Origin: Frondihabitans peucedani
Lineage (GTDB): Bacteria > Actinomycetota > Actinomycetes > Actinomycetales > Microbacteriaceae
Reading direction: 5' to 3'
Assembly (NCBI RefSeq): GCF_039537585.1
Contig: NZ_BAABAU010000012.1
Coordinates: 1 to 49,348 of the forward strand
Length of the DNA: 49,348 nucleotides
How positions within the stretch are numbered: the first letter of the stretch is position 1; every line of letters begins with the position of its first letter. A model generated the notes under the pieces. It was not told the origin of the DNA. It did not search any database and saw nothing but the letters and a program-made list of their open reading frames with translations. Below, piece after piece: positions 2,290 to 49,348 of the stretch. Both the position numbers and the translations under genes were made by a program.

Positions 2290-3756
2290 GTGTCGATGCA
2301 ATCAAGAACCTCATCCCGCGTCACCGCTCCACCGGAGCGGTTGCGTGATGCGTGGGTCGCCCTGGCCGGGCTGTCGGCCGTGTTCCTGTTCGAGATGCTC
2401 GACAACTCGATCCTGAACGTCGCCCTTCCCACCATCGGCCGCGACCTGGGAGCGGCGACCGCAGCCCTGCAATGGGTGTCGGGAGCGTACTCGGCAGCCT
2501 TCGGCGGTCTGATGCTCCTTTTCGGAGCGGTGGCCGATCGCTTCGGCCGACGCCGGGTCATGCTCACCGGTCTCGTCCTCCTCGCCGCAGCCAGCATCCT
2601 GACCGTGTTCGTCACGTCGACGGAACAGCTCATCGTCGTCCGGGCGCTCATGGGAGTCGCTGCGGCGATGACGACGCCGGGAACGATGGCGCTGGCGTTC
2701 CGCTTGTTCGCGGGGCAGGATCTCCGCGTGCGGGCGCTGACCGTGATCTCCACTGCGGGGCTCGTCGGTCTGGCCATCGCACCGACTGTCGGCGGGTTCG
2801 TGCTCGCGGTCGCCCCCTGGCAGGTGCTCCTGCTGGCCACGGCTCCCATCGCAGCCCTCGCCTTCGTCGGCATCCGTGTCGGTGTCAGCACCGATCAGAA
2901 GGCCGACCTGCACCGTGATCCGATCGACGTCGTCGGCGCGGTCCTGGGCAGCGTGACCGTCGTCGGCATCCTGGTCACACCCACGCTCTTCGTCACCCAC
3001 GCCGGTGCAGGGCTGTCCTGGGGTTCAGTCTCTGTCACAGCCCTCTCGATCGCCGCCTTCGTGATCCGGGAGCGGTCGGCCCGCTCTCCCCTCCTCGACC
3101 TGCATCTCATCGCCACACCCCTGGTCTCGAGTGGCCTGGCCTACAAAGCAGCCGCGGGTCTCGCCATGGCGGGCCTGTCGTACCTGGTCACTCTGCAGCT
3201 GCAGCTCGCGTGGGGGTGGTCGCCGGCTCTCGCCGCCGTCGGCACCCTGCCCCAGGTCGTCGTCCTCCTCGCGAGCGGACGGCTCGTCGGACCGTTCGTG
3301 ACCCGGGTGGGCCTCGGCCGCGCCGCGTGGATGAGCGCCGCCTCCGTGGTCGCCGGTCTCGCCGTGTTCGCGAGCCTCGCCCGGTTCGGATACGTCTGGG
3401 TCGCCCTCGCGCTCGTCCTCGTGGCTGCAGGGATGCGGGTCGTCGGCGTCGTCGCCGGCAACAACGTCCTTCGGGGCCTGCCCGAGAACCGCACCTCGAT
3501 CGGTGCAGCCCTCATCGACACGGCGAGCGAGATCGCGACCGCGGTCGGCATCACCGCCACCGGCACCCTCCTCGCCGCCCTCGTGACCGGCAGCATCACG
3601 AGCGGGTCGTGGACACCGACGCGTGTCGACACGTTCGAGACCGCCCTCACCGTCGCCGGCCTGACGATCACCGCCCTCGCCGCAGCCCTCGTCGCGCTCG
3701 GCATCATCCGTGCCCGCCGCACCACCACCACCACCCCGGAGCCCACCCATGTCTGA
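2290..3756 (+). CDS. MFS transporter, DHA2 (EmrB/QacA-like) drug exporter
   Basis: About 488 residues with many hydrophobic segments, consistent with the 14-helix DHA2 group. The helix-1 motif LDNSILNVALPTIGRDL and the loop GAVADRFGRRRVM (motif A) are clear. It should export small hydrophobic compounds with proton antiport. A longer reading frame starts at 2197, but GAAGGAG at 2276-2282 sits seven bases before GTG 2290, with ATG 2296 as the alternative, so I use 2290. The stop overlaps the esterase start by 8 bp, which implies translational coupling and a joint role, perhaps export and hydrolysis of an ester or antibiotic. Confidence 0.88.
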   Translation: MSMQSRTSSRVTAPPERLRDAWVALAGLSAVFLFEMLDNSILNVALPTIGRDLGAATAALQWVSGAYSAAFGGLMLLFGAVADRFGRRRVMLTGLVLLAAASILTVFVTSTEQLIVVRALMGVAAAMTTPGTMALAFRLFAGQDLRVRALTVISTAGLVGLAIAPTVGGFVLAVAPWQVLLLATAPIAALAFVGIRVGVSTDQKADLHRDPIDVVGAVLGSVTVVGILVTPTLFVTHAGAGLSWGSVSVTALSIAAFVIRERSARSPLLDLHLIATPLVSSGLAYKAAAGLAMAGLSYLVTLQLQLAWGWSPALAAVGTLPQVVVLLASGRLVGPFVTRVGLGRAAWMSAASVVAGLAVFASLARFGYVWVALALVLVAAGMRVVGVVAGNNVLRGLPENRTSIGAALIDTASEIATAVGITATGTLLAALVTGSITSGSWTPTRVDTFETALTVAGLTITALAAALVALGIIRARRTTTTTPEPTHV

Positions 3757-4780
3757 CCGCAGCGTCCGCCCCCCGTTCGACCCCGAACTCCAGACGTTCC
3801 TCACCGCCCTCGAGGCTCGAGGGCCCTTCACCCTGTCGAACGAGATGCTGCCTCGCATGCGCCGACTCGACACGACCGAAGAAGAACTCGACGCACAGCT
3901 CCGCACCCGGGGCTACGAACGCCGAAGCGTCACCGTTCCCGGGCACCTGGGCGACCCCATTCAGCTGGCCGTCATCCAGCGCATCGGCCGCACCGGTTCG
4001 ACCGCCGCCGTCTACACGATCCACGGTGGCGGGATGATGTTCGGTCACCACCTCGGCAACCTCGACTCGTACGACGACTGGCTCCTCGACCACGACGTCG
4101 TCCTCCTCAGCATCGACTACCGCCTGGCCCCTGAATTTCCCAACCCGTATCCCGTCGAGGACTGCTACGCCGGTCTGGTCTGGGTCGCCGCCCACGCCGA
4201 CGAGCTCGGCATCGACCCCGACCGGATCGTGATCGCCGGTCAGAGCGCCGGCGGCGGGCTCGCCACCGGCACGGCCCTCCTCGCCCGCGACCGGAAGGGC
4301 CCGGACCTGCTGGCGCAGATCCTCGTCTCGCCCATGCTCGACGACCGCGACAACACGGTGTCGACGCTCCAGATCGACGGTGTCGGGGTCGCTGACCGGC
4401 AGATGACCCGCTTCGGCTGGGACGCCTACCTCGGCGCTCGCCGCGCCACCGACGACGTCTCCGTCTACGCCGCACCCGCCCGCGCCGGAGACCTCCAGGG
4501 TCTGCCTCGGACCTACATCGACTGCGGAAGCACCGAGGTGTTCCGCGACGAGACGGTCGCCTATGCCAGTGCCCTCTGGGCCGCAGGAGTCGACGCCGAA
4601 CTGCACGTCTGGCCAGGCGCCTTCCACGGATTCACCAGCATGATGCCCCAGGCCGTCCTCTCGAAGACCGCGACCAGAGCCCTGGGGGATTGGACGCGAC
4701 GGACTCTGGGAGCGCCCGCCCCGGGCGCGGTGCCATCGAATCCTCCTGCGGACCGTCGGGCAGGGAAGCGCCACGAGTGA
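3749..4780 (+). CDS. Alpha/beta hydrolase, hormone-sensitive lipase family esterase
   Basis: A 343-residue HSL-type esterase. The oxyanion-hole motif HGGG (IHGGGMMFGHH), the nucleophile elbow GQSAGGG, the acid (STEVFRDE) and the catalytic His (PGAFHGF) occur in the expected order and spacing. Family members hydrolyse short-chain or acetyl esters in the cytoplasm. The start ATG overlaps the last 8 bp of the exporter gene, with GGAG about 10 bp upstream, so a two-gene operon is likely. The 3' end faces the ABC ATPase gene across 13 bp. Confidence 0.92.
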   Translation: MSDRSVRPPFDPELQTFLTALEARGPFTLSNEMLPRMRRLDTTEEELDAQLRTRGYERRSVTVPGHLGDPIQLAVIQRIGRTGSTAAVYTIHGGGMMFGHHLGNLDSYDDWLLDHDVVLLSIDYRLAPEFPNPYPVEDCYAGLVWVAAHADELGIDPDRIVIAGQSAGGGLATGTALLARDRKGPDLLAQILVSPMLDDRDNTVSTLQIDGVGVADRQMTRFGWDAYLGARRATDDVSVYAAPARAGDLQGLPRTYIDCGSTEVFRDETVAYASALWAAGVDAELHVWPGAFHGFTSMMPQAVLSKTATRALGDWTRRTLGAPAPGAVPSNPPADRRAGKRHE

Positions 4781-4793
4781 CGTCCCGGCGGCG

Positions 4794-5663
4794 TCAGGGC
4801 TCGTTCGCCTCGATCTCGGAGTCGAGCGTGTGGATGGCGGACGTCATGCCGCCGAGGGCCTTGAGCTCGTGACTCAGTTCGGTGAGTTCATCGCCTCCGG
4901 CCATCTGGCGGGTCAGTTCGTCGAGTTCGACTTCATCTCGCCGCTTGTCGAGCACGGTCTGGCCGAGCTTCAGGATCGTGAAGTGATTGCCGACCATGTA
5001 GGCGTGGTGCGGGTTGTGCGTGATGAAGACGACGCCGAGCCCCGCATCACGAGCGGCCGCGGTGTACTTCAGGACGACGCCCGACTGCTTCACACCGAGA
5101 GCGGCCGTGGGCTCGTCCAGAATGAGGACCTTGGCACCGAAGTAGACGGCGCGCGCAATGGCCACGCACTGTCGTTGACCACCGGAGAGTGTGCCGATGG
5201 GCTGGTCGATGTCCTTCACGACGACACCCATCTTCCTCAGTTCCTGATCCGCGATCTCCTTCATCTCCCGGATGCGGAGGCCGGAGAACGGGATCCTGCT
5301 GCCGACGAGTTCGGCTCCGAGGAAGAAGTTGCGCCAGGTCTCCATCAGCCCCACGACGGCGAGGTCCTGATACACGGTCGCGATCCCGGCAGCGAGGGCC
5401 TCGCGGGGGGAAGAGAACGTGGTCTCCTTGCCCGAGATCAACATCGTGCCCTCGTTGTGATCGTGAAGGCCCGCCATGATCTTGATCAGGGTCGATTTGC
5501 CGGCACCGTTGTCGCCGAGGACGCACGTCACTTCTCCGGCGCGCACGGTCAGGCTGATGCCCTTGATCGCGCGAATCGCTCCGTAGGACTTTCCGACGTC
5601 GATCATCTCGATGAGCGGAACACCCGTCGCGACTCTCGATGCCGACTCGACTGTCTCTGTCAT
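4794..5663 (-). CDS. Sugar ABC transporter ATP-binding protein (single-domain, FrcA-like)
   Basis: A 289-residue ABC ATPase. Walker A is GDNGAGKST, the Q-loop is VYQD, the signature is LSGGQRQ, Walker B is VLILDEPTAAL and the H-loop is FITHN. It has one ATPase domain, like FrcA, rather than the tandem form of RbsA or XylG. The last 30 residues are acidic and helical. It powers uptake with the permease immediately upstream in the operon, which ends 3 bp away. Downstream it is convergent with the esterase gene. Confidence 0.93.
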   Translation of the reverse strand: MTETVESASRVATGVPLIEMIDVGKSYGAIRAIKGISLTVRAGEVTCVLGDNGAGKSTLIKIMAGLHDHNEGTMLISGKETTFSSPREALAAGIATVYQDLAVVGLMETWRNFFLGAELVGSRIPFSGLRIREMKEIADQELRKMGVVVKDIDQPIGTLSGGQRQCVAIARAVYFGAKVLILDEPTAALGVKQSGVVLKYTAAARDAGLGVVFITHNPHHAYMVGNHFTILKLGQTVLDKRRDEVELDELTRQMAGGDELTELSHELKALGGMTSAIHTLDSEIEANEP

Positions 5664-5666
5664 GGG

Positions 5667-7995: not shown

Positions 7996-8991
7996 TCAGT
8001 ACACGACGGTCTCGGTCCGACCGCTCCCGAGCGAGGCCGTCGCGGCCTCGGCGATGGCCTGGGCTCTGAGGCCGTCCCGCAGGGGAGCGGGCGAGGGGGT
8101 CCGTGTCTCGAGCGCGGTCACGAACGCAGCGAGGGCGGCCGCATAGGTGGGGCGCACGCGTTCGAACCAGCCGGCGTAGAGCCCGGTGCTCACGATCCCG
8201 GTGCTGCTGTACTGCGAGACGTTCCCGGGGGACTGTCGGCGAGACTCGACGAGCCCGGAGGATCCCATCACCTCGATCCTCTCGTCGTATCCGTACCCGG
8301 TCCGTCGGACGCTGTCGATCTGGACGAGAGCTCCCGAGGGCAGCGTGAGCGTGGCCACGGAGGTGTCCACGTCGCCGAACCCGGTGAGAGCAGGATCGAC
8401 CAGGACCGATCCTGTGGCGGCGACCGAGACGGGATCCTGGCCCGCTATCCAGCGGCACAGGTCGAAGAAGTGGACCGTCTGGTCGCGCAGCTGCCCGCCT
8501 GACACCCGCAGGTAGTCGACAGGGGGAAGGGACGGCCCCCGCGAGCTCATCTGAACGAGCTCGATCGCGCCGATGCCGCCCTCGTCGATGATGCGCTTCA
8601 GGTGCGCGTGGTCGCGATCGAACCGGCGGTTGAAATCGACCATGGCGACGATCCCCGACGCCTCTACGTACTCCACCACCTCAGTCGCCTCGGCCAGGGT
8701 GGGCGCGAGGGGCTTCTCGCACAGTACGGCGAGACCTGCGTCGGCTGCCCTCCGCAGGTGTGCGGCATGCGTGTCGGTCGAGGATGCGACGAAGACCGCG
8801 TCCACCTCCGAGGGGTCGAATGCGTCGGACTCGTCGTCAGTCGGGCGACCGCCGAAGCGGCCGGTCAGCGCCCTCGCGCGGGAGAGGTCGACGTCGTAGA
8901 CGACGACGAGGTCGACCGAGGGATTCGCGGCGAGATTCTCGGCGTGGACGGCCCCGATGAAGCCGGCGCCGATCAGTGCGAAGCGCTGCAT
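7996..8991 (-). CDS. Gfo/Idh/MocA-family oxidoreductase
   Basis: A 331-residue NAD(P)-dependent sugar or polyol dehydrogenase. The Rossmann start is ALIGAGFIGAVHAENLA, followed by DAVFVASSTDTHAAH. The catalytic EKP motif is in VLCEKPLAPTLAEA, and the C-terminal domain has GGQLRDQTVHFFDLCRWI with the catalytic Asp and His. The whole reading frame is much longer because no stop intervenes upstream; the true ATG at 8991 overlaps the isomerase stop by one base (TGATG), which indicates coupled translation. It likely oxidises the imported sugar or inositol. The final codons are VVY then stop at 7996. Confidence 0.93.
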   Translation of the reverse strand: MQRFALIGAGFIGAVHAENLAANPSVDLVVVYDVDLSRARALTGRFGGRPTDDESDAFDPSEVDAVFVASSTDTHAAHLRRAADAGLAVLCEKPLAPTLAEATEVVEYVEASGIVAMVDFNRRFDRDHAHLKRIIDEGGIGAIELVQMSSRGPSLPPVDYLRVSGGQLRDQTVHFFDLCRWIAGQDPVSVAATGSVLVDPALTGFGDVDTSVATLTLPSGALVQIDSVRRTGYGYDERIEVMGSSGLVESRRQSPGNVSQYSSTGIVSTGLYAGWFERVRPTYAAALAAFVTALETRTPSPAPLRDGLRAQAIAEAATASLGSGRTETVVY

Positions 8992-9902
8992 CAGCCCACC
9001 AGCGTCGCGAGGAGAGTGTGCATCGCCGTCGCCATCGCCAGCGGATCCTGCTCGTTGGCCCGGGTCGAGAACATCTCGGACACCCACCAGCCGTCGTAGC
9101 CGGTCGTCTTGATCGCGTCGACCCACTGCTGCAGGGGAATCGCTCCTCCGCCGATGACGACGTCCCGGTGTCGGGTCTGGTCGGGGACGTCGTTCTGGCG
9201 ATCCAGATCGAGGCCGTCCGAGAGGTGCACAGCCTTGATGAGCTCCGCGGGAAGGGCGCGGACCTCGTCGAGCGTGTCGCCCGTGGTCCAGAAATGCCAG
9301 GTGTCGAGGGCGATCCCGACGTTGTCCCGACCCGCCTCCTCGATGAGCTGGAGGGCGTGACGGCAGCGGTTGAGGTGCGCCCAGGCGAGCGGTTCGAGGT
9401 AGATGTCGAGCCCGTAGCCGGAGGCGATGTCTGCGGCGTCCCGGACGTTGGCGCCGGCGACGCGGACGGCTGCGCGCTCGTCCAGGCCGAGAGTCGCCCG
9501 ATACCGGCCGTCGTCGTCGGTCAGGCGTCCGGCGCGGAAGTCGACGACGACCTCGCGGTCGAGCGGCCCCGTGCAGAGCTGGACGACAGGTGCTCCCACG
9601 ACGACCGCGATCTCGCACATCCGGCGCACCTCCGCCAGGAAGACGGACCGCCCTGCATCCTGACGCTCGATGTCGAGCACGGCGCCGAGGCCCGACACCT
9701 CGAGACCGTCGAGCAGGCCGGGGAGCGTCTGCATGTCGTAGCCGGCGTCGAGGTAGCGGTACAGCTTGGGGGATTGCAGTTCGACCGCTCCGAAACCGGC
9801 GGCTCGCGCATGCTGGATGTCCGTCACGACGTTCCCGTGGAAGGTCGTCGTGACGTTCATCGAGATCTTGGGCTTCGAGAGGGCCATCGGCTTCCACTTC
9901 AT
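8991..9902 (-). CDS. Sugar phosphate isomerase/epimerase-type TIM-barrel protein
   Basis: An AP-endonuclease-2-like TIM barrel of the IolE/IolI group, about 303 residues. Visible are FGAVELQSPKLYRYLDAGYD, YLEPLAWAHLN, NVGIALDTWHFWTTGD (metal-binding Asp and His) and DGWWVSEMFST (metal-binding Glu). It probably isomerises or dehydrates the product of the neighbouring dehydrogenase. An open frame extends to 9968, but that would place the LacI-type operator at 9930 inside the gene. I therefore prefer ATG 9902, with ATG 9887 as an alternative; neither has a strong ribosome-binding site. Confidence 0.85.
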   Translation of the reverse strand: MKWKPMALSKPKISMNVTTTFHGNVVTDIQHARAAGFGAVELQSPKLYRYLDAGYDMQTLPGLLDGLEVSGLGAVLDIERQDAGRSVFLAEVRRMCEIAVVVGAPVVQLCTGPLDREVVVDFRAGRLTDDDGRYRATLGLDERAAVRVAGANVRDAADIASGYGLDIYLEPLAWAHLNRCRHALQLIEEAGRDNVGIALDTWHFWTTGDTLDEVRALPAELIKAVHLSDGLDLDRQNDVPDQTRHRDVVIGGGAIPLQQWVDAIKTTGYDGWWVSEMFSTRANEQDPLAMATAMHTLLATLVG

Positions 9903-12411: not shown

Positions 12412-12467
12412 CCCTCGATCCTGCGGCCCTCCGCTCGTCTCTGCCGCTCCCCAATCGGACGGTTGGA

Positions 12468-13364: not shown

Positions 13365-14387
13365 ATGCCCGTCCACGGTTCCCCGCTGCAGCGCCTCGGT
13401 TTTCTGACGATCGGGTCCTTCGATCCTGCGGCCCCGGCGGGCGGTCACGAAGACACGCTCCGGGTGATCGAGCGGGGGGAGGAGCTGGGCCTCGACAGCG
13501 CGTGGCTGCGCCACCGGCACCTCCAGCCGGGCATCTCGTCGCCCGTGGCGATCATGGCCGCGGCCTCGCAGCGGACCAGCCGCATCGAGCTCGGCACCGC
13601 GGTCACACCCATCGGAGCCGAGAACCCGTTCCGGCTCGCCGAAGACCTCGGAACCGTCGACGTCCTGCTCGGCGGCCGCCTCAACCCCGGGTTCTCGGCG
13701 GGGACGCCGATGAACTTCGACCTGTACCGCGACGCCATCTACCCCGACACGAAAGACCAGGAGGACCTCGGCTACGACCGCCTCCTGCGGCTCCGCGACC
13801 TCGTCCGCGGCGACGTCGTCAACGAGTCGCCCGAGCGACGGGGCATCGAGGAGTTCAGCGCCATCGTCCAGCCCCACAGCCCCGGCCTCGCCGACCGGCT
13901 CTGGTGCGGGGTCGGCAGCACGCGGTCGGCGGTCTGGGCGGGGGAGAACGGGTTCCACCTGCTCGCGTCGAGCGTGACCCGCGCCGAGCAGGGCACCGAC
14001 TTCGCGACCAACCAGCGCGCCCAGATCGACGCCTACCGCGAGGCGCACCAGGATGCGGCTTCCGCACGCGTCTCGCAGGGCCTCGTCGTCGTGCCGACCG
14101 ACTCGGCGACGCCGGAGCAGCGCGCCCGCTACGCCGCGTACGCCGAGTCGCGGGCCGGTCGCGTCGGGGTGCCCCAGGGCCCGGGCAGGCTGCTCTTCGC
14201 GGCCGACCTCGTCGGGACCTCCGCCGAGATCGCGGATGCCCTGCACGCCGATCCTGCCTATCAGGCCGTCGACGAGGTCGCGTTCGCGCTGCCGTTCGCG
14301 CTCGAGTCCGACGACTACGCGCAGATCCTGACCGACCTCGCCGAGCACCTCGGCCCCGAGCTCGGCTGGACGCCGGCCGCGGCGTAG
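13365..14387 (+). CDS. LLM-class flavin-dependent monooxygenase
   Basis: A 340-residue bacterial-luciferase-like protein. The barrel begins RLGFLTIGSFDPAAP and continues VIERGEELGLDSAWLRHRHL, IELGTAVTPIGAENPFRLAE, LLGGRLNPGFSAG and LADRLWCGVGSTRSAVWAGE, as in the FMN- or F420-dependent group. It probably oxidises a small organic substrate with reduced flavin. It starts 25 bp after the regulator gene, so it may be cotranscribed with it. A GC-rich 18-bp tandem repeat starts right after the stop codon. Confidence 0.88.
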   Translation: MPVHGSPLQRLGFLTIGSFDPAAPAGGHEDTLRVIERGEELGLDSAWLRHRHLQPGISSPVAIMAAASQRTSRIELGTAVTPIGAENPFRLAEDLGTVDVLLGGRLNPGFSAGTPMNFDLYRDAIYPDTKDQEDLGYDRLLRLRDLVRGDVVNESPERRGIEEFSAIVQPHSPGLADRLWCGVGSTRSAVWAGENGFHLLASSVTRAEQGTDFATNQRAQIDAYREAHQDAASARVSQGLVVVPTDSATPEQRARYAAYAESRAGRVGVPQGPGRLLFAADLVGTSAEIADALHADPAYQAVDEVAFALPFALESDDYAQILTDLAEHLGPELGWTPAAA

Positions 14388-16146: not shown

Positions 16147-16176
16147 CCCCTGCCGTGTGAGGCAGGATCGTCCGAT

Positions 16177-18640: not shown

Positions 18641-18843
18641 CGCGGGGTCCGCGGGCCGCCCGGCGACCGTCCGAAAAGCGAAGCAGGATCGGCGACTTCC
18701 GGGGCCTGGAGACGGGGGTTCCGCCACGCCGGATACAGCCCTGGGCGAACAACACCTGTTCCCGGCCGGACGACCCTTAGAGTTACGGCGACCGACAGAC
18801 CCCGCGGGCCGATTTTCTCCCGCGACGAGAGCAGGAGACCCCG

Positions 18844-23562: not shown

Positions 23563-23621
23563 TTCGCTTTTCTCCGGCCTGCGCCTCGAAATCCAGGTCA
23601 GGCCCTCGTGCTCACGCAGGA

Positions 23622-31375: not shown

Positions 31376-31522
31376 AAATACCTCCACTGTGCAGCTCGGT
31401 GAAGTCGTGCCTCCAGTAAACCCGGCCGGTCGGGATGCGGTTCGCCTTTCGACAGGCCCTTGCCGGGCGGCGCCGATCCTGCCACGCTTCAGGCCCGGCC
31501 TGTCATCGATCAGGGAGCGACC

Positions 31523-33119: not shown

Positions 33120-33245
33120 TCCACCGCTCGGTGCCGAGCGGCACCTGGGGGCGCCCCGGAGGCGACTGCAAGCGCGGGCGGGTTATCGTGATCCTGCACC
33201 ACGAACCATCGTGGTCGACGGCATCCACGGCGGGGCAGAGCGCAC

Positions 33246-37893: not shown

Positions 37894-38646
37894 TCAGACG
37901 GCGATGCGACCGCCGTCGACCGGCAGGATCGCGCCATGCACGAAGCTGGCCGAGTCGGTCGCGAGGAAGACGATCGCATCGGCGATCTCGTCGGCTGTCC
38001 CCGGGCGTCCGGCCGGCCCACCGGCAGCGAGAGCGTCGAGACTGTCGCCCATGGCCGCTGTGCCCTCGGTGCGCGTCGGGCCGGGGCTCACAGCGTTGAC
38101 GCGGACGCCCGACGGCCCGAATTCCGCGGCCCACGACTTCGTCAGCAGGACGAGCGCAGCCTTGCTGGACCCGTAGAGGCCCATGCCCGCCGCGCCGAAC
38201 TCGGCGACCATCGTCGTGACGTTGACGATGGCTCCATGTCCGCGGTCTGCCATCGCGGGTGCGAGCGCGGCGACGAGGAAGTACGGCGCTTTGACATTGA
38301 TCGCGTAGACCTCGTCGAACGACTCCTCGGTCGTCTCGGCCGTCGGGCCGAAGGGGAAGACGCCGGCGCTGGTGACCAGGATGTCGACGTGGCCGTCTCC
38401 GAGACGCGTCGCCTCCTCTGCCACCTGCTTCGCCCCCCGCTCGTCACGCAGGTCGGCTCGCACGAAGTCGGCTCGCCCGCCGTCGGCGACGATGGCGTCG
38501 ACAGCGGCCCTCCCCCGGTCCTCGTCCCGTCCGGTGATGATCACGTGGATGCCCCGTGCAGCCAGCTTTGCCGCGGTCGCGCGGCCGATGCCGCTGGTTC
38601 CCCCCGTCACGAGGGCTGTCTGGGGTGTGCCTGCGATGTCGTTCAT
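37894..38646 (-). CDS. Short-chain dehydrogenase/reductase
   Basis: A 250-residue classical SDR. TGGTSGIGRATAAKLA is the NADP motif, LVTSAGVFPFGP matches NNAG, the catalytic Ser lies near VAEFG, and GLYGSSKAALVLLTKSWAAE contains YxxxK. VRVNAVSPGPTRTEGTA and the C-terminal GAILPVDGG are typical. It is divergent from a TetR gene with a paired operator between them, a usual arrangement for inducible detoxification. Both genes lie between two copies of a REP-like repeat. Confidence 0.94.
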   Translation of the reverse strand: MNDIAGTPQTALVTGGTSGIGRATAAKLAARGIHVIITGRDEDRGRAAVDAIVADGGRADFVRADLRDERGAKQVAEEATRLGDGHVDILVTSAGVFPFGPTAETTEESFDEVYAINVKAPYFLVAALAPAMADRGHGAIVNVTTMVAEFGAAGMGLYGSSKAALVLLTKSWAAEFGPSGVRVNAVSPGPTRTEGTAAMGDSLDALAAGGPAGRPGTADEIADAIVFLATDSASFVHGAILPVDGGRIAV

Positions 38647-39447: not shown

Positions 39448-40539
39448 TCAGGCGAGCCCGAACGCGAACTGCAGCCCCAGGCTCGCCAGCGACACGACGA
39501 TCCAGAGCGCGCCGCCCAGGATCAGCGGTCGCGGCCCGGCCTTCCGGAAGCCCGCGAGATCGGTCGACAGGCCGATCGCACCGAGGGCGACCGTGATCAG
39601 GAACACCGACACCGCGCTCAGCGGCACGTGGGTGGCGGTCGGGATCAGCCCGATCGAGTTGGCGGCCGCGACGACGACGAAGCCGATCAGGAACCACGGA
39701 ACGAGCCGGAAGACGTTCACCCGGCTGCGGGCGGGCGCAGGATCTGCACCCGCCTCGGCCGCCGCGATCCTGCGCCCCGCCCAGGCCGACAGCACGAGCG
39801 CGATCGGGATGATCATGAGGGTCCGCACGAGCTTCACGACGACGGCGAACTGCGTCGCCGCGGGCCCGTACGTGGTGGCGGTGGCGACGACCGACGACAT
39901 GTCGTTGACGGCGGTGCCGGCGAACAGCCCGAAGGCGTGCTGGCTCATGCCCAGGGCGTGGCCGACGACCGGGAACAGCAGGACGGCCGTCACATTGAAC
40001 AGGAAGATCGTCGAGATCGCGTAGGCGACGTCGATGCTGACGGCGCCGATGACCGGTGTCACGGCGGCGATCGCGGAGGCACCGCAGATGCCGGTGCCCA
40101 CGCCGATCAGGGTGCGCAGGTCGCCGACGATGCCGAGCGCCCGGCCGATCAGGTAGGCGGCGACGAGGCAGATCACGAGCGTCCCGAGCATCACGGGGAG
40201 CGACTCCACGCCGACGCGCGCGATCTGCGCAAGCGAGAGCTGCGATCCGAGCACGACCACCGACAGCTGGAGCACGAACCGACTGGCTGTCTTGATGCCG
40301 GGCGTGAACCGGGCCGACGGCCGACGGAGGGTCGCCAGGATCAGGCCGATCACGATCGCGGTCACCGGAGCTCCGATGAGCGGCACGAACCGGCCGACGA
40401 TCGTCGCGACGACGGCGATGCCGACGGCCAGGGCGAGCCCGGGCACCCGGTCGAGCACGGAGGGCCCGGAGTCGGAGGGCCCGGAGTCGGCGCGCCCGGA
40501 GTCGGCGGCGGGAGCGTTCGGCGGAGGAGGAGAGGTCAC
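39448..40539 (-). CDS. YeiH/UPF0324-family membrane transporter
   Basis: About 363 residues from GTG 40539 with some ten membrane helices. Family motifs include VVVLGSQLSLAQIARVG, LIGVGTGICGASAIAAVTPV and FGLFAGTAVNDMSSVVATAT. The family is annotated as putative sulfate exporters. The N-terminus carries DSG repeats encoded by three 15-bp tandem units. The open frame continues to 40638 without homology. Upstream, a 330-bp noncoding interval (40540-40869) separates it from the divergent afsA homologue; it holds the two operator-like sites. Confidence 0.9.
   Translation of the reverse strand: MTSPPPPNAPAADSGRADSGPSDSGPSVLDRVPGLALAVGIAVVATIVGRFVPLIGAPVTAIVIGLILATLRRPSARFTPGIKTASRFVLQLSVVVLGSQLSLAQIARVGVESLPVMLGTLVICLVAAYLIGRALGIVGDLRTLIGVGTGICGASAIAAVTPVIGAVSIDVAYAISTIFLFNVTAVLLFPVVGHALGMSQHAFGLFAGTAVNDMSSVVATATTYGPAATQFAVVVKLVRTLMIIPIALVLSAWAGRRIAAAEAGADPAPARSRVNVFRLVPWFLIGFVVVAAANSIGLIPTATHVPLSAVSVFLITVALGAIGLSTDLAGFRKAGPRPLILGGALWIVVSLASLGLQFAFGLA
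40462..40506 (-). repeat. Three 15-bp tandem units in the YeiH-type gene
   Basis: Units of the form G(G/C)GCCCGGAGTCGG(A/C) at 40462, 40477 and 40492 encode repeated Asp-Ser-Gly in the cytoplasmic N-terminus. Confidence 0.9.
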
Positions 40540-40869: not shown

Positions 40870-41784
40870 GTGGCGAACATGCTTCGAGAACAGTCTGTGG
40901 CGGCACCCCTGTCGTTCGAGCGGCTCGTGTCGGGTCGGCTGGTGCATCGACGGCAGCTGAGCGACGTGCTCGTGACCGACGCGAGGCCCCTCGGCGGCGA
41001 CCGCTTCGAGAGCGCGGTGCAGTGGCCCCGGAACCACGTGCTCCTCGGCCGCTCGGGCCGGGTCGACTCCGCCCTCGTCGCCGAGACCGTGCGGCAGGTC
41101 ACGACCTACATCGCCCACACGCTCTACGACGTCCCCCTGGGCAACCAGTTCCTGATGTCCAGGCTCCGCACCCGCGTGATCCTGCCCCCGCCGTCGGCGC
41201 TCGCCGGCTCCGACCTCGTCGTGGAGGTGCTCTTCACCGACGTGCGGCGGGGCGCCTCGGGCCCGACGGCGTTCGTGTCGCATCTCCGGATCACGCAGGA
41301 CGGTCGGGAGATCGCGAGCGGCGAGGGCTTCGCGAGGGTCGTCACCCCCGAGGCGTACCGCCGCGTGCGGGCCGGGATCGCGCAGGACGACGGCCCGCCG
41401 ATCCGGCGGCACCCGGTCGAGGCCGTCTCCCCGGCGGTCGCGGGCGTGGCGCACTCGGGACTGGTCGTGATCGGCCGGTCCGCTCCCCCGGCCGGGTTCG
41501 CGCTGCTCGTCGATCCGCTGAGCCCGGCCTTCTTCGACCACGATCTCGATCACGTCCCCGGGATGCTCGTCGTCGAGGGCCTGCGGCAGACGGCCCGCGC
41601 CGTGCTCGGCGATCCTGCTGTCGACTTCGCGACCCTCGATCTCTCGTTCGACCGGATGATCGAGCTCTCCGACGACCCCGAGATCCGGGTCACGGGCCTC
41701 GGCGACTCGCCGGCGCTGCCGGCCACCGCAGAGATCGTGCGCGAGGGCGTCGTCCTCGCTCACGGGTCGTTCGTCGTGACGTGA
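40870..41784 (+). CDS. AfsA/ScbA-family gamma-butyrolactone synthase homologue
   Basis: A 304-residue protein with two AfsA hot-dog repeats. The first holds RLVHRRQLSDVLVTDARPL, QWPRNHVLLG and AETVRQ; the second holds FFDHDLDHVPGMLVVEGLRQ. The pairs Glu72/Arg75 and Glu236/Arg239 match the Glu/Arg pairs known to be needed in ScbA (78/81 and 240/243). The family joins a beta-ketoacyl-ACP to dihydroxyacetone phosphate, the first step to butyrolactone signals. It is convergent with the receptor gene, 5 bp apart. The start is GTG 40870, with ATG 40879 as the alternative. Confidence 0.88.
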   Translation: MANMLREQSVAAPLSFERLVSGRLVHRRQLSDVLVTDARPLGGDRFESAVQWPRNHVLLGRSGRVDSALVAETVRQVTTYIAHTLYDVPLGNQFLMSRLRTRVILPPPSALAGSDLVVEVLFTDVRRGASGPTAFVSHLRITQDGREIASGEGFARVVTPEAYRRVRAGIAQDDGPPIRRHPVEAVSPAVAGVAHSGLVVIGRSAPPAGFALLVDPLSPAFFDHDLDHVPGMLVVEGLRQTARAVLGDPAVDFATLDLSFDRMIELSDDPEIRVTGLGDSPALPATAEIVREGVVLAHGSFVVT

Positions 41785-44797: not shown

Positions 44798-45573
44798 ACG
44801 ACACCCCCGGGTCCCGTGACGACCGGCGCGACGACCGGCGTGACGACCGGCGCGACGAGCGCCTCGACGACCGGTACCGCGACTGGGACGCCTCGTATGT
44901 CCTCGGCGCGCTGCCCGCGGACGAGCGCCTCGAGTACGAGAGGCACCTGGCCGGCTGCCCCGCGTGCCGGGAGAGCGTCGCCGAACTGGCCGGCATGCCC
45001 GGGATCCTCGCCCGGCTCTCGACCGAGGACGCGCTCACGGTCCGCGCCGACGAGGTCGACGCCCCTCGCGCCGACGCGGAGCAGCAGGGCGCCGACCTCC
45101 GGCGCCTCGCCCACCTGGCCACCCGTCGTCGCAGGCGCCGCCGCGGGCTCGTCACGGCGCTCGCCGCCGCAGCCGCGGTGGTCGCCCTCGTCGGAGGCGT
45201 CGCTCTCGGCGGCTCCCGCCTCTCCCCCTTCGCCGGCGACACGGGCCGGACGACCGCGGCCACGGCGATGTCGCCGGTCGGCGGCGAGACCCGCCTCGCA
45301 GCCGACCTCCGGATCACCGGGAAGCCCTGGGGCACGCGCTTCGACTGGAACTGCTCGTACGGCTCCGGCCTCTGGAGCAGAGGGCCGGCAGCCCGCTACG
45401 ACCTCGTGGTCACCGACGACGACGGGCGGACCTCGACCGTCGCCACCTGGGCACTGACGCAGGATCGCGCCGCCGGGCTCTCCGCGTCCACCGAGATCGA
45501 CCTCGCGAGCATCCGCACCGTCTCGATCCGGCTGCACGGGAGCGACCGGGACCTCGTGGCGACGCGCGTCTGA
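44794..45573 (+). CDS. Anti-sigma factor with zinc-finger N-terminus (RskA/RslA-like)
   Basis: A 259-residue membrane protein. The N-terminus has DDRR repeats from three 12-bp units, then the anti-sigma domain YVLGALPADERLEYERHLAG and CPACRESVAEL (zinc-type HxxxCxxC). A single helix near residues 125-147 (GLVTALAAAAAVVALVGGVA) leads to an exported domain with WNCSYGSGLWSRG and DLVVTDDDGRTS. It should bind the sigma factor encoded just before it and release it on a signal, as RslA does for SigL. Confidence 0.9.
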   Translation: MNDTPGSRDDRRDDRRDDRRDERLDDRYRDWDASYVLGALPADERLEYERHLAGCPACRESVAELAGMPGILARLSTEDALTVRADEVDAPRADAEQQGADLRRLAHLATRRRRRRRGLVTALAAAAAVVALVGGVALGGSRLSPFAGDTGRTTAATAMSPVGGETRLAADLRITGKPWGTRFDWNCSYGSGLWSRGPAARYDLVVTDDDGRTSTVATWALTQDRAAGLSASTEIDLASIRTVSIRLHGSDRDLVATRV

Positions 45574-45673: not shown

Positions 45674-45979
45674 ATGAGGGCCCCCGAAGCCGACGACGCG
45701 CCCGCCGGGAGTGCGCCGACCGACCCGCCCCGGACGACCGCCGGCCCCGACCCCGACAGCTCCTACGAGCGCGCCGCCTTCGTGGCTCCGGCGTCGATCG
45801 AGCGCTACGCCCCGCCCGGCTCGAAGACCCCCGAAGGAGCAGGATCGCGACGACCCGCCGAGCCCTACATGACCGTCGACTGGGAGAAGGCGGGCCCGAC
45901 CTACGACCAGCTGATCGCCGAGGCCCAGGCCGCCCTCGCGAGGAGGCCGCCGAAGCGGGCTACCGCTCCCCCCGCATGA
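45674..45979 (+). CDS. Small disordered protein of unknown function
   Basis: A 101-residue Pro/Ala-rich protein, mostly disordered, with a short ordered patch near the end (AEPYMTVDWEKAGPTYDQLI, then AEAQAALARRPPKRA). It overlaps the GH2 gene by 20 bp in convergent orientation. The upstream 100 bp contain two imperfect copies of a CCCCGCGTCGCT unit. The coding pattern is plausible but I recognise no family. Confidence 0.55.
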   Translation: MRAPEADDAPAGSAPTDPPRTTAGPDPDSSYERAAFVAPASIERYAPPGSKTPEGAGSRRPAEPYMTVDWEKAGPTYDQLIAEAQAALARRPPKRATAPPA

Positions 45980-47822
45980 GCTCGGCGATCCGTTCGGCCG
46001 GCAGCTTCGGCACGCGATCGGCGCCGACCAGCCCGTTCACCTCGAGCCCCGTGTCGGTCAGCTGCGTGTAGCAGTAGCCGACGAGCATCCTGCTGTCGTG
46101 GACGGCCCGCATGATGTCGGCGAGGCGCGCGTCGAAGTCGTCGGCGTCGGCGGCCTGCGAGTAGCCCCAGCCGTCGTCGTCGGCGGGGGTCACCGAGAAC
46201 TTCACTCCCCCGAACTCCGTCAGCATGACGGGCTGGCCGGCGTCGGCGACCCCGTCGAGCAGGATCCGTCGCCCGGCCGGCCCGAAGCCCTCGAGGAGCG
46301 CTCCCCGCACGGTCTCGTCGCGGTAGCGCTGCCGGAGCACCTCCCCGCTCGGCTCGTAGTCGTGGATCGACAGGATGTCGCTGTCCTGGTGCTCCCAGCC
46401 GTCGTTCGAGATCACGGGGCGGTCGGGATCGAGGGCGCGGGTGAGCTCGACGAGCGCGCGCGAGAACGCCTGCTGAGCAGGATCGTGCGCGATGTGCTGG
46501 ACGCCCCAGCTCTCGTTCACGGGCACCCAGGTCATGATCGAGGGGTGCGAGACGTCCCGCTCGACGACGTCCACCCACTCCTTCGCGAGCCGCGACACCG
46601 CGGTGGGCGAGAACTCGTAGGCGCCGGCGACCTCGCCCCAGACGAGCAGGCCGAGCCGGTCGGCCCAGTACAGGAAGCGCGGGTCCTCCACCTTCTGGTG
46701 CACCCGGGTGGCGTTGAAGCCGAGGCGCTTGATCAGTTCGACCTCGTCTCGGAGCGCCTGGACGCTGGGGGCCGCGAGGTGCGACTCCGGCCAGTAGCCC
46801 TGGTTCAGGACCGAGCGCACGTAGTACGGGCGGTCGTTCAGCAGGAACGCGCCGCGGGCCGCCTCGACCGAGCGGAGGCCGAGGTACGACTCGACCGAGT
46901 CGACGACGACGCCTCCCTGCTCGAGCTCGACGGTCGCGTCGAGCAGCGTCGGGTTCTCGGGGCTCCAGAGGAGGTCCTCGTAGGCCTGGCCGTTGAGCTG
47001 GTGGGGCAGGGCCACGGTCGCGGTCGGCCGGCCGGAGGTCACCGGCACCCGCACGCTGCCGAGCTCGCGCTCACCGATCCGGAGGGAGACGCTGAGCACG
47101 GTGTCCGCGCCGACATGCCCGCGCAGGATCACGCCCGCCTCGACCGTGCCCCGGGTAACCGACGGCGTCCAGCGCAGGCTCTCCACCGACAGCGTCGGGA
47201 CGGCCTCGAGCCAGACCGGCTGCCAGATCCCGGTGGTGCGGTGGTACCAGATCTTGTGCTGGTCGAGGTGCCAGTCCTGCTTCCCGCGGGGCTGGGCGAC
47301 GTCGGCAGGATCGTCCTCGGCCCGGACCACGACGACGTGCGGCCCCTCCCCCGACACGGCGGTGGTCACGTCGAAGACGAACGGTGTCTGTCCGCCCTCG
47401 TGGTGGCCGATTAGGTGGCCGTCGATCCAGACGCTGGCGCGGTAGTCGACGGCGCCGAAGTGCAGCAGGATGCGCGGGGAGCCCTCACCGAGACCGGCGT
47501 CGACGAGGTCGTCGCGGAAGACCGACCGCTGGTACCAGACGACCGGGTGGAAACCCGGGTCGCCGATCCCGGACGCGGGGGACTCGGGCGGGAACGGCAC
47601 CACGATGCGCATCCCGGTGTCGAGGCCGGCCGCCCAGCCGGCGTCGAGCCCCTCGTCGGAGTCGTCGTACCGGAAGTCCCACTCGCCCGACAGGTCGTGC
47701 CAGCCGGGGCGGAGGAGCTGGGGTCGCGGGTGGTCGCCTGCCTGCAGGCTCGCCGCCGGTCGTGGGCGGTCCGAGCCGGGGACGGGCGTGGTCGTCGTGA
47801 TGCCGTTGCTCATGCTGGTCAT
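45960..47822 (-). CDS. Glycoside hydrolase family 2 enzyme
   Basis: A 620-residue intracellular-looking GH2 protein (no signal peptide). The N-terminal sugar-binding domain has LSGEWDFRYDDSDEGL, RILLHFGAVDYRASVWIDGH and GIWQPVWLEAVP; the Ig-like middle has LLWSPENPTLLDATVELE. The catalytic TIM barrel has GFNATRVHQKVEDPRFLYWA, TWVPVNESWGV (NE, acid/base Glu) and PVMLTEFGG (nucleophile Glu). Family activities include beta-galactosidase and beta-glucuronidase; the substrate is not certain. It is divergent from a secreted GH43 enzyme with a LacI-like site between. Confidence 0.92.
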   Translation of the reverse strand: MTSMSNGITTTTPVPGSDRPRPAASLQAGDHPRPQLLRPGWHDLSGEWDFRYDDSDEGLDAGWAAGLDTGMRIVVPFPPESPASGIGDPGFHPVVWYQRSVFRDDLVDAGLGEGSPRILLHFGAVDYRASVWIDGHLIGHHEGGQTPFVFDVTTAVSGEGPHVVVVRAEDDPADVAQPRGKQDWHLDQHKIWYHRTTGIWQPVWLEAVPTLSVESLRWTPSVTRGTVEAGVILRGHVGADTVLSVSLRIGERELGSVRVPVTSGRPTATVALPHQLNGQAYEDLLWSPENPTLLDATVELEQGGVVVDSVESYLGLRSVEAARGAFLLNDRPYYVRSVLNQGYWPESHLAAPSVQALRDEVELIKRLGFNATRVHQKVEDPRFLYWADRLGLLVWGEVAGAYEFSPTAVSRLAKEWVDVVERDVSHPSIMTWVPVNESWGVQHIAHDPAQQAFSRALVELTRALDPDRPVISNDGWEHQDSDILSIHDYEPSGEVLRQRYRDETVRGALLEGFGPAGRRILLDGVADAGQPVMLTEFGGVKFSVTPADDDGWGYSQAADADDFDARLADIMRAVHDSRMLVGYCYTQLTDTGLEVNGLVGADRVPKLPAERIAELMRGER

Positions 47823-47901
47823 AGTGCCGAACTTTCGACGAGAGCGGGGGAGTGTCGGCGGTACGTCGCGACGACTTCCGAGCAGGGGCTTCTCAGATCC
47901 A

Positions 47902-47915: not shown

Positions 47916-47992
47916 CGTCGCACTGTCGCTCGGGCGGGACCGCAGCGGCGGAGCGCGATCTCACCGTCGAGCCGCGCTCGGGGAGGTTTCGA

Positions 47993-49348
47993 ATGATCAC
48001 CAGACTCTCTCGCAGGGTGCGCGTCCTCGGCGTCCTGATCGGAGCGCTCGCCCTCGGGGCCACGTCCCTGCCGGTGGCGGCGACTGCCGCTGCCGCTCCG
48101 GTCGGGGCCGCCGCCTCGGCCGCGTCGTCCGTCGCCGTCGCGTCGTCCGTCGCCGTCGCGTCCGGCCACCGCGCCGACGACCCCGTGGCTCACGACCCCA
48201 CCATGGTGAAGGAGGGCGGCTGGTACTACCTCGCCATCACCGGCGACGCCGGGAAGGCCGACACGTTCCTCCCGCTCAAGCGCTCGCGCGACCTCGTCCA
48301 CTGGGAGGACCTCGCTCCCGTGTTCACGATCCTGCCCTCCTGGATCGCCCCGGCGCTCGGCGTCGACGCGGCCTCGGCCCCGAAGGACCTCTGGGCGCCC
48401 GACCTCAGCTACTCGCACGGCGAGTGGCGGCTGTACTACGCCGCCAGCATCTTCGGGAAGAACACCTCCGTGATCGGTTTGGCCACGACGAAGACGCTCG
48501 ACCCGCGGAGTCGCGACTTCGGCTGGCACGACCGGGGTCAGGTCGTGAAGTCCACCGACTACCAGCAGCCCGGCGGCACCAGCTTCAACGCGATCGACCC
48601 CAGCATCACGGTCGACCGCTCCGGCCAGACCTGGCTCTCGTTCGGCTCCTTCTTCTCGGGCATCTGGCTGCACCGCATCGACGGAGCCACCGGCAGGGTC
48701 CCGGCCGGCGACGTCGCCGTCCACCTCGCCGAGCGGGCCGCTCCCGACGCGGAGGAGAACTCGACCATCGTCTACCGGAACGGCTCCTACTACCTGTTCC
48801 TCTCCTTCGACTACTGCTGCCGCGGCATCGACAGCGACTACCGCACCGTCGTCGGCAGGGCGTCGAGCATCACGGGACCGTACGTCGACGCGTCGGGGGC
48901 GCCGATGCTGAACGGCACGGGCGGCACGGAGGTGATGCGCGGCTACAACGAGTTCGTCGGAGCCGGGGGAGCGGACATCCTGCTGGGCTCCGGCGCGCAG
49001 CCCGACCTCGTCGTCAACCACTACTACGACGCGACCGACGGCGCCGTCCCGAAGCTCAGCATCCGCACGCTCACCTGGAGCTCCGGCGGCTGGCCCCGGG
49101 TGAGTCCGCCGCTCAACCCCAGCCGCTCCGTGGGCCACGGAGACGCGTACGTCACCATCTCGCCGCGCGCCGCCGACACGGTCGTGGAGAACGCAGAATG
49201 CGGGTACGAGGGGGCGAACATCGGCCTCGGCGACGATGCGGGCACGGCCTGCCAGGAGTGGCAGCTCAGCGACCGCGGCTCGGGCACGCGCCTCACGAAC
49301 CGCTTCAGCAACGACGTCGCCGAAGACGCAGGATGCGTGAACACCGAC
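47993..49348 (+). CDS. Secreted GH43 arabinanase-like enzyme (cut by the right edge)
   Basis: At least 452 residues without a stop. A signal peptide (RVLGVLIGALALGATSLPVA) is followed by an Ala/Ser/Val stretch from an 18-bp tandem repeat, then a GH43 five-bladed propeller. AHDPTMVKEGGWYYL has the base Asp, NAIDPSITVD the second Asp and AEENSTIVYRNGSYYLFLSF the acid Glu. DYCCRGIDSDYRTVVGRASS is typical of endo-1,5-alpha-arabinanases (GH43_5). The C-terminal end (AECGYEGANIGLG, ACQEWQLSDRGSGTRLTNRF) begins a ricin-type lectin domain. GGGGAGG precedes the ATG. It should degrade plant arabinan outside the cell. Confidence 0.92.
   Translation, partial: MITRLSRRVRVLGVLIGALALGATSLPVAATAAAAPVGAAASAASSVAVASSVAVASGHRADDPVAHDPTMVKEGGWYYLAITGDAGKADTFLPLKRSRDLVHWEDLAPVFTILPSWIAPALGVDAASAPKDLWAPDLSYSHGEWRLYYAASIFGKNTSVIGLATTKTLDPRSRDFGWHDRGQVVKSTDYQQPGGTSFNAIDPSITVDRSGQTWLSFGSFFSGIWLHRIDGATGRVPAGDVAVHLAERAAPDAEENSTIVYRNGSYYLFLSFDYCCRGIDSDYRTVVGRASSITGPYVDASGAPMLNGTGGTEVMRGYNEFVGAGGADILLGSGAQPDLVVNHYYDATDGAVPKLSIRTLTWSSGGWPRVSPPLNPSRSVGHGDAYVTISPRAADTVVENAECGYEGANIGLGDDAGTACQEWQLSDRGSGTRLTNRFSNDVAEDAGCVNTD

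Follow-up and report, generated by a model that had tools for sequence, protein, structure and literature searches.

Short, over-represented DNA words that mark a genome as self are known from the DNA uptake sequences (DUS) of Neisseriaceae, for which almost 1,500 (PMC2346458) to thousands of copies (PMC3630211) have been reported. These occur as dialects with a conserved core within one family, where they act as transformation barriers (PMC3630211), and show an atypical distribution in mobile elements (PMC7371117). The uptake signal sequences (USS) of Pasteurellaceae form a family-wide word with two lineage variants, AAGTGCGGT and ACAAGCGGT, which arose by mutation rather than copying and are flanked by A+T-rich repeats (PMC1626085). 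HIP1 and the alternate HIPs (highly iterated palindromes) of cyanobacteria occur at about one copy per kb, have associated methylases and are replaced by alternatives in some relatives (PMC4390886), while known Chi words differ between species (PMC8022716). To our knowledge, uptake-type words with dialects are known only in Neisseriaceae and Pasteurellaceae. Here, we describe an octamer, GCAGGATC, that occurs over three thousand times in the genome of a bacterium of the genus Frondihabitans (Microbacteriaceae) but rarely on the plasmid-like contigs examined, and of which related species carry spelling variants; our searches showed no published description of it. Its properties are consistent with a self-recognition mark such as a DNA uptake sequence, although this assignment remains tentative.

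Results

An octamer in large excess on both strands

In the window, i.e. the whole stretch of 49,348 bases that was analysed, GCAGGATC is found exactly 54 times, 26 times on the + strand and 28 times on the - strand, whereas dinucleotide shuffles give a mean of 2.90 copies and at most 7 in 100 shuffles. This confirms the observation of the earlier note. The copies are located as follows:

2715..2722 (+), GCAGGATC copy
5292..5299 (-), GCAGGATC copy
8390..8397 (+), GCAGGATC copy
9044..9051 (-), GCAGGATC copy
12417..12424 (-), GCAGGATC copy
13422..13429 (-), GCAGGATC copy
14250..14257 (-), GCAGGATC copy
14903..14910 (-), GCAGGATC copy
15568..15575 (-), GCAGGATC copy
16162..16169 (+), GCAGGATC copy
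16600..16607 (-), GCAGGATC copy
16693..16700 (+), GCAGGATC copy
16842..16849 (+), GCAGGATC copy
17943..17950 (+), GCAGGATC copy
18214..18221 (-), GCAGGATC copy
18683..18690 (+), GCAGGATC copy
20430..20437 (-), GCAGGATC copy
21700..21707 (-), GCAGGATC copy
21804..21811 (+), GCAGGATC copy
22542..22549 (+), GCAGGATC copy
22946..22953 (+), GCAGGATC copy
23258..23265 (-), GCAGGATC copy
23616..23623 (+), GCAGGATC copy
23941..23948 (-), GCAGGATC copy
24746..24753 (+), GCAGGATC copy
25584..25591 (-), GCAGGATC copy
26144..26151 (+), GCAGGATC copy, overlapping the next one as the palindrome GCAGGATCCTGC
26148..26155 (-), GCAGGATC copy, overlapping the previous one
26546..26553 (+), GCAGGATC copy
27080..27087 (+), GCAGGATC copy
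27914..27921 (-), GCAGGATC copy
28320..28327 (-), GCAGGATC copy
29042..29049 (-), GCAGGATC copy
31475..31482 (-), GCAGGATC copy
31801..31808 (-), GCAGGATC copy
32654..32661 (+), GCAGGATC copy
32808..32815 (-), GCAGGATC copy
33190..33197 (-), GCAGGATC copy
33990..33997 (-), GCAGGATC copy
34346..34353 (+), GCAGGATC copy
34751..34758 (+), GCAGGATC copy
36033..36040 (-), GCAGGATC copy
37923..37930 (+), GCAGGATC copy
39737..39744 (+), GCAGGATC copy
39766..39773 (-), GCAGGATC copy
41178..41185 (-), GCAGGATC copy
41611..41618 (-), GCAGGATC copy
45459..45466 (+), GCAGGATC copy
45839..45846 (+), GCAGGATC copy
46259..46266 (+), GCAGGATC copy
46477..46484 (+), GCAGGATC copy
47123..47130 (+), GCAGGATC copy
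47305..47312 (+), GCAGGATC copy
48328..48335 (-), GCAGGATC copy

The excess extends to the whole 3.69-Mb genome, which has 3208 copies (1579 + 1629), a density of 0.87 per kb that is similar to the copy numbers reported for neisserial DUS. In G000 (Frondihabitans genomes are referred to as G000 to G006), the word is equally dense between genes (0.90 per kb) and within genes (0.88 per kb). Gap variation lies within the random range in every block listed but that of G006, and no significant orientation-dependent position bias within genes was found (p = 0.12).

Codon usage does not explain the excess

Codon-pair or context-dependent mutation bias could in principle generate such a word without any selection on DNA. 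In the predicted genes of the window, identified with our own codon-usage gene caller (39,252 coding bases), there are 42 copies against 5.10 +/- 2.11 after synonymous-codon shuffling (largest 12 in 500 shuffles), and against 9.21 +/- 2.55 when codon-junction dinucleotides are also kept (largest 15 in 100). In 380 kb of coding sequence of the genome, window included, GCAGGATC ranks first of all octamers against codon shuffling (329 against 41.7). The codon junctions being kept as well, the excess is still 4.5-fold (315 against 69.5). The codon frames named in the earlier note are real: in the 380 kb, GAT-CCT-GC is seen 71 times against 1.45 and GCA-GGA-TC 39 times against 0.45; five of six frames are enriched, and the sixth has 1 copy against 0.05. 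Some of the excess is nevertheless context, as the junction-preserving null is 1.6 times higher than the plain one (69.5 against 42.8 in the same genes). High-order Markov models of the same sequence also give higher expectations, because they contain the sub-words of the motif itself: in 449 kb, 384 copies are found against 71 (order 3), 126 (order 4) and 271 (order 5), the last leaving only a 1.4-fold excess, and in the window alone GCAGGATC is not among the words listed at the top of such models. However, the equal density between genes in G000, two plasmid-like contigs in the same hosts that are at their codon null, and the sharp species-specific dialects described below also speak against a pure bias, which we consider very unlikely.

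Species dialects and conservation of sites

Relatives carry sharp, single-letter dialects of the word: GCAGGAKCC, GCAGGAWC, GAAGGATCC, and, in many other genera, GCGGCATCC. The ninth base in G000 is enriched in the order G, C, A, T. The GATC inside the octamer is not the common theme, because the dialects GCAGGAGC, GCAGGAAC and GCGGCATCC lack it. Density varies about fourfold between species of one genus, and not every genome examined carries a strong word: G073 shows no clear one, and G345 only a weak one (20 against 7.1 with codon shuffling; not in the top list when codon junctions are kept).

Within Frondihabitans, sites are kept more often than same-phase neighbouring octamers in 27 of 30 ordered pairs among G000, G001, G002, G003, G004 and G006 (ratio 0.81 to 2.34; for example 21 of 39 against 0.23 from G006 to G000), but less often in 5 of 6 comparisons toward G005, whose dialect differs (0.32 to 0.68, one 1.03). 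Site conservation is absent toward G004 from three of five species and nearly absent from G000 to G001 and to G003 (ratios 1.04 and 1.02). At the GAAGGATC sites of G005, the homologue is GCAGGATC in 5 of 16 (G000), 4 of 16 (G002) and 4 of 17 (G004), where the word occurs about 0.3 to 0.7 times per kb in the aligned genes. Between genera there is no conservation: 0 of 19 sites are kept from G000 to G075, and GCGGCATCC sites of G007 hold GCAGGATC in 0 of 16 to 18 in each Frondihabitans. Flanks of shared sites are somewhat more alike than flanks of unshared sites in most pairs, but out to 480 bases as well, so no local recombination footprint is shown.

Scarcity on plasmid-like contigs

The word is rare on the contigs tested that appear to be plasmids, an assignment that is itself inferred. 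Contig C2 of G000, which carries a TraG/TraD-type coupling protein, has 6 copies in 94 kb, and contig C2 of G006 has 1 in the 80 kb read of its 450 kb. Contigs C2 to C4 of G002 have 0.12 to 0.20 per kb, slightly above their codon null (4 against 1.5, 5 against 2.2).

Candidate machineries

RecC was not found in any of the 40 genomes searched, with Escherichia coli as a positive control, so a Chi site of RecBCD is unlikely. A Chi-like regulatory site of another helicase-nuclease, for example AdnAB, which would protect or recombine self DNA at breaks, would fit a short, non-palindromic word that occurs about once per kb and is scarce on plasmid-like contigs. However, a leading-strand bias would probably be expected for Chi, whereas the orientation of the word is balanced: 129:137 in 300 kb of one contig and similarly even in the other blocks listed, and in the five GCAGGATC blocks tested a 3:1 skew is excluded (p from 1e-5 to 1e-16), although origin and terminus were not mapped, so that a block could straddle one. 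We therefore regard this alternative as unlikely, even though AdnAB itself was not searched for. With the same restriction, these counts disagree with the polar orientation toward the terminus that would probably be expected for KOPS, in line with the earlier note, which had excluded a KOPS-type motif.

A HIP1-like by-product of methylation and mismatch repair, in which methylated words survive repair and pile up, would agree with the similar density of HIP1 and with a CcrM/RsrI-like adenine methylase that is conserved in 16 of 16 genomes searched. But C5-methylases were not found in G000, G002, G003, G005, G006 and G075, making cytosine methylation unlikely, and the adenine methylase is 68 to 81 % identical to that of G007 across dialects, without comparison of its recognition region, and is also present in G073 (77 %), which has no clear word. 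In addition, the dialects share no palindrome, and one-off states at sites lacking the word in a sister species are of many types, mostly transversions, rather than one mutation class. This explanation thus appears improbable, with the restriction that the methylase classes PF02384, PF02086 and PF07669 were not searched.

Of the competence machinery, ComEC is present in 36 of 36 genomes, but as these include G073, it does not discriminate. A PilB-type ATPase was found in all 7 Frondihabitans and in G075, but is missing in six genomes dense in GCGGCATCC (G085, G088, G133, G169, G240, G252), so type IV pili do not appear to be necessary; by our count, 95 of the other 213 genomes have PilB.

Discussion

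The earlier note proposed that the excess points to selection on DNA, comparable with HIP1, uptake sequences or recombination hotspots. The data presented here support this view: codon shuffling, enrichment in both orientations and in five of six frames, equal density within and between genes in G000, site conservation in most Frondihabitans pairs and scarcity on plasmid-like contigs all agree with an effect on double-stranded DNA, with the refinements that a RecBCD-type hotspot is unlikely and that GATC is not the common theme, although whether the force is selection or molecular drive is not settled.

The explanation we favour, if only tentatively and at somewhat less than even odds, is that GCAGGATC is a genome-wide recognition word for double-stranded DNA, most likely an uptake-type (DUS/USS-like) sequence, read by one lineage-specific protein, not yet identified, whose specificity drifts between species. 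Fragments that carry the word would be preferentially taken up, or preferentially recombined, from dead relatives, and the word would then accumulate on the chromosome by biased replacement (molecular drive), with or without direct selection; when the specificity of the reader shifts, the genome follows and a dialect arises. That a single protein reads the word, that the process is DNA uptake through ComEC with some pilus, and that drive rather than direct selection builds it up are inferences. Flp-pilus-dependent natural transformation is known in Actinobacteria, in Micrococcus luteus (PMC4322843, PMC6370729), but no transformation data for Microbacteriaceae were found in the part of the literature that we surveyed.

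Alternatively, an abundant chromosomal DNA-binding protein, be it a nucleoid, segregation or replication factor or a marker of chromosome as self, could need the word about once per kilobase, with direct selection keeping the sites and plasmids lacking it because they are not organised by that factor. The sharp, protein-like position preferences, the scarcity on plasmid-like contigs, the conservation of sites and the symmetric orientation would all fit. However, thousands of strict 8 to 9 bp sites with random spacing appear unusual for nucleoid or segregation factors, and the variable density within one genus, together with the missing or weak words of G073 and G345, is odd for a core function. 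We consider this the strongest of the alternatives, but still unlikely.

A broader speculation is possible but not the more probable case: Microbacteriaceae could use a family-wide DNA self-recognition code, variants of a GC-R-G-S-A-N-C-C frame with sharp species dialects, that marks the chromosome as self and sets barriers to gene exchange between species. This would be the first uptake-type sequence system in Actinomycetota and, as far as we know, in any Gram-positive group. A third, independent case in a large actinobacterial family, with several dialects in one genus, would show how such codes arise and switch, could help to transform actinobacteria that are hard to engineer, and would allow mobile DNA to be spotted by the missing word. 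If it is not uptake, the word still calls for an unknown reader of chromosomal DNA.

Finally, we would like to compare the word with the described systems. With the DUS of Neisseriaceae, it shares a short non-palindromic word in thousands of copies and dialects within one family, while word, phylum and cell envelope differ. With the USS of Pasteurellaceae, it shares a family-wide word with lineage variants; the flanking A+T-rich repeats of USS, however, are not seen within 8 bases of GCAGGATC. Like HIP1 and the alternate HIPs of cyanobacteria, it is over-represented at about one per kb and replaced by alternatives in some relatives, but HIPs are palindromes tied to methylases, whereas GCAGGATC is not a palindrome and no methylase among the classes searched tracks it in all lineages. 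Like Chi sites, it is short, asymmetric, over-represented and species-specific, but it occurs without RecC being found in the genomes searched and without strand skew in the blocks tested.

Abundance of the octamer and its independence of codon usage

Fifty-four copies of GCAGGATC, 26 and 28 by strand, are present in the window, as the earlier note had claimed, whereas dinucleotide shuffles give 2.9. With our own gene calls, 42 copies lie in the window's genes against 5.1 +/- 2.1 when synonymous codons are shuffled within genes (largest in 500: 12) and against 9.2 +/- 2.6 when codon-junction dinucleotides are also kept (largest in 100: 15). The window looks like ordinary chromosome in the 20 proteins scanned, which include sensor-kinase-like, NhaA, glycosidase-like, regulator and transporter genes, with five proteins lacking a match. 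Two of its genes were noted for their domain content:

19191-21101: NhaA sodium/proton antiporter fused to a DsbA-like thioredoxin domain
40870-41784: gene with an A-factor (AfsA) hotdog domain

Codon usage does not explain the excess. In 380 kb of coding sequence of G000, the genome from which the window comes, 329 copies stand against 41.7 +/- 5.9 (20 shuffles, largest 60), which places the word first of all octamers. By frame, GAT-CCT-GC is seen 71 times against 1.45, GCA-GGA-TC 39 against 0.45 and G-ATC-CTG-C 119 against 31; the two other GCAGGATC frames are seen 56 against 5.0 and 43 against 3.6, and the last GATCCTGC frame 1 against 0.05. With codon junctions kept, 315 copies stand against 69.5, so that neither codon usage nor codon pairs reproduce the count. 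High-order Markov models of the sequence are contaminated by the motif's own sub-words and were not used as the test; for orders 3 to 5 they predict 71, 126 and 271 copies against 384 seen in 449 kb, and in the window alone the word is not at the top. The 380-kb and 449-kb sets include two sequence stretches (L024 and L028) that are absent from the junction-preserving counts, the dialect comparison and the arrangement analysis described below. Interestingly, GGGGGAG / CTCCCCC words also exceed the junction-preserving null in most of the 13 genomes compared.

Distribution within the genus and the family

The whole genome of the host, taken to be a Frondihabitans (Microbacteriaceae), comprises 3.69 Mb in 12 contigs and has 3208 copies; the reversed word has 22, although this control is weak because the reversed word contains CTAG. 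The six other genomes of the genus (G001 to G006) have 844 to 2980 copies, or 0.22 to 0.63 per kb by division of rounded sizes. One of them, G006, has a contig of 4,230,729 bases, the length of the Frondihabitans sucicola chromosome NZ_AP027732.1, with dnaE at matching coordinates; this dnaE (G006:C1:2508807-2512293) lies in three pieces in different frames, perhaps owing to sequencing errors. Among 398 genomes of the family, the only genome of another genus that we find above 0.3 per kb is G075 (1559 copies in 2.9 Mb); G345 has 1012 in 3.4 Mb, and most others lie below 0.2 per kb. DnaE of G075 is 76 % identical to that of G000, below the 80 % of G007 and G008, two genomes that are not rich in GCAGGATC, so G075 reached the same word separately or kept it.

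Arrangement on the chromosome and on plasmid-like contigs

In contiguous blocks the two orientations are balanced: 129:137 in 300 kb of G000, and 54:47, 50:53, 47:52 and 41:48 in 160 to 200 kb of G001, G002, G006 and G075, with a 3:1 skew excluded in each of these five. The smaller counts of the other dialects are balanced too. Even spacing is not seen; gap variation is within the random range except in G006, which is over-dispersed, with a 10-kb stretch without copies. Intergenic and genic densities per kb are 0.90 and 0.88 in G000, 0.72 and 0.47 in G001, 0.47 and 0.52 in G002, 0.45 and 0.66 in G006, and 0.86 and 0.40 in G075. A position bias within genes, as in USS, is not significant. Core and non-orthologous genes in the comparable 125-kb region show no clear difference, with 0.70 per kb (89 genes) against 0.61 (18 genes).

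Contigs that resemble plasmids are poor in the word. The 94-kb contig C2 of G000, which has a lower G+C (0.64) and a TraG/TraD-type coupling protein and is a probable conjugative plasmid or element, has 6 copies, or 0.06 per kb, and its genes have 4 against 2.9 expected. The first 80 kb of the 450-kb second contig of G006 has 1 copy against 2.9. Contigs C2 to C4 of G002 (80 kb read in all) have 0.12 to 0.20 per kb, with 4 against 1.5 and 5 against 2.2 in genes. That these poor contigs are plasmids is inferred from size, composition and, for one, the coupling protein. By contrast, the first 20 kb of contigs C3 to C7 of G000 have 0.50 to 1.05 per kb.

Dialects

Against codon shuffling, the leading motif-like words are CGCAGGATC(G) in G000, GCAGGATC in G006, GCAGGATCC in G002, GCAGGATCC and GCAGGAGCC in G001, the same two and GCAGGATGC in G004, GCAGGAAC and, more weakly, GCAGGATC in G003, GAAGGATCC(G) in G005, and GCAGGATCC in G075. 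With junctions kept the same words remain in the lists, though GGGGGAG words rise above them in G003 and G004, and GCAGGATC itself drops out of the ten best octamers of G003 while GCAGGATCC stays at 12 against 1.3. Single-letter profiles are sharp: in G005, position 2 accepts A (21 against 1.9) or C (12 against 3.6), and otherwise only 3 copies against 0.1 with C first stand out; in G001, position 7 accepts T (32 against 4.2) or G (34 against 5.9).

Outside Frondihabitans, the word of G007, from another genus, is GCGGCATCC (46 against 7.5), and G169 has GCGGCATCC (34 against 4.9) and GCGACATCC (20 against 3.9). GCGGCATCC is dense in many genera of the family (for example G169, G129, G088, G007, G133 and G240; 29 of 249 genomes at 0.30 per kb or more by our division, with up to 2858 copies in G169) but not in Frondihabitans (97 to 240 in six genomes). 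It changes sharply within genera (1436 in G133, 138 in G190) and may be the commonest dialect. G062, of a different genus, has an excess centred on the palindrome GGATCC (GCGGATCC 60 against 16, GACGGATCC 15 against 1, in stretches L209-L213); G073 shows no clear word and G345 at most a weak GCAGGATC (20 against 7.1 with codon shuffling, and not in the top list with junctions kept), in about 85 kb of coding sequence each. Most of these words fit the frame GCRGSATCC with one further change; that they descend from one ancestral word is inferred.

Conservation of sites

In codon alignments of 109 genes with their orthologues, GCAGGATC sites are kept whole more often than same-phase octamers within 60 bases in 27 of 30 ordered pairs of G000, G001, G002, G003, G004 and G006 (ratio 0.81 to 2.34). 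The best cases are 21 of 39 against 0.23 (G006 to G000), 16 of 32 against 0.24 (G001 to G002) and 13 of 22 against 0.30 (G003 to G000). However, the three exceptions all point to G004, G000 to G001 and to G003 are near 1, and the pairs share history, so they are not independent. Toward G005, whose dialect differs, the ratio is below 1 in 5 of 6 comparisons (0.32 to 0.68; 1.03 from G004), and between genera there is no conservation (0 of 19 from G000 to G075; 1 of 13 from G006 to G075). Codons inside the word are kept more often than the same codons elsewhere (z 2.5 to 6.5 in nine of eleven comparisons; 1.5 for G005 and 0.0 for G007), while amino-acid identity at motif codons is similar to that of flanks (0.71 to 0.85 against 0.75 to 0.82).

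What happens where the dialects differ? At the GAAGGATC sites of G005, the homologue is GCAGGATC in 5 of 16 (G000), 4 of 16 (G002), 4 of 17 (G004), 1 of 10 (G006), 1 of 13 (G001) and 0 of 16 (G003, with GCAGGAAC in 2). At GCAGGAGC and GCAGGAAC sites a switch to GCAGGATC is rare (0 to 3 per 16 to 40 sites), whereas at GCAGGATG sites of G004 it is commoner (4 of 26, 4 of 25 and 6 of 26 in G000, G006 and G002). The GCGGCATCC sites of G007 never hold GCAGGATC in Frondihabitans (0 of 16 to 18 each). One-off states are of many kinds, mostly transversions, which fits selection or replacement of a word better than one mutational process. A local recombination footprint was not shown.

Candidate readers of the word

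RecC was found in 0 of 40 genomes, and a RecBCD Chi is therefore rejected. A C5-methylase was found in 11 of 26 genomes, but not in G000, G002, G003, G005, G006 and G075; repair of 5-methylcytosine is accordingly rejected for G000, although Vsr itself was not searched for. A PF01555 methylase is present in 20 of 20 genomes. One conserved CcrM/RsrI-like adenine methylase (minus strand, 1471-2370 of stretch L252), next to a gene that looks like a lipoate ligase by eye, was found in 16 of 16 Microbacteriaceae genomes searched, at 68 to 81 % identity to that of G007 in the 15 others. G073 (77 %) and G345 (71 %) are among these, and this methylase does not track the word.

ComEC is present in 36 of 36 genomes. 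A PilB-type ATPase occurs in all 7 Frondihabitans, G075 and G007, and in all 7 Frondihabitans genomes searched its gene (853-2667 of stretch L257) has a second ATPase hit just downstream, perhaps PilT. In 249 genomes, 125 have a PilB match below 1e-70 by our count; of 36 motif-dense ones (the 29 dense in GCGGCATCC, plus G000 to G005 and G075) 30 have it, and of the other 213, 95 (nominal Fisher p = 2e-5, not corrected for kinship). Nevertheless, six GCGGCATCC-dense genomes lack it, and the type IV pilus is rejected as the necessary machinery. A search for PilB on plasmids was uninformative, giving only matches below 60 % identity among the 5000 records kept. No candidate therefore tracks the words in all lineages.

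Comparison with known recognition sequences

In searches restricted to open-licence papers, we saw no paper about a genomic motif GCAGGATC, none containing GATCCTGC as a whole word, none about a bacterial motif for six variants, and no description in Microbacteriaceae. The literature consulted for comparison was PMC4390886, PMC2346458, PMC3630211, PMC1626085, PMC7371117, PMC8022716, PMC2843746 and PMC4322843, in the last of which a term search found no mention of uptake sequences.

Finally, we would like to place the word beside the systems that it most resembles. Membership among the HIPs fails on palindromy, and membership among the Chi sites of RecBCD fails on RecC, not found in the 40 genomes searched, and on the lack of the skew that Chi would be expected to show. 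An uptake-type word is, tentatively, the most likely reading; as preferential uptake is untested and the evidence on competence is inconclusive, we do not classify it as a DUS, and the site-conservation data widen the evidence in both directions. Asymmetric and orientation-neutral, with strict core letters and species dialects, and scarce on plasmid-like contigs, the word behaves like the DUS of Neisseriaceae, which have dialects, a CTG core and barriers to transformation (PMC3630211), and like the USS of Pasteurellaceae, with their two lineage words (PMC1626085).
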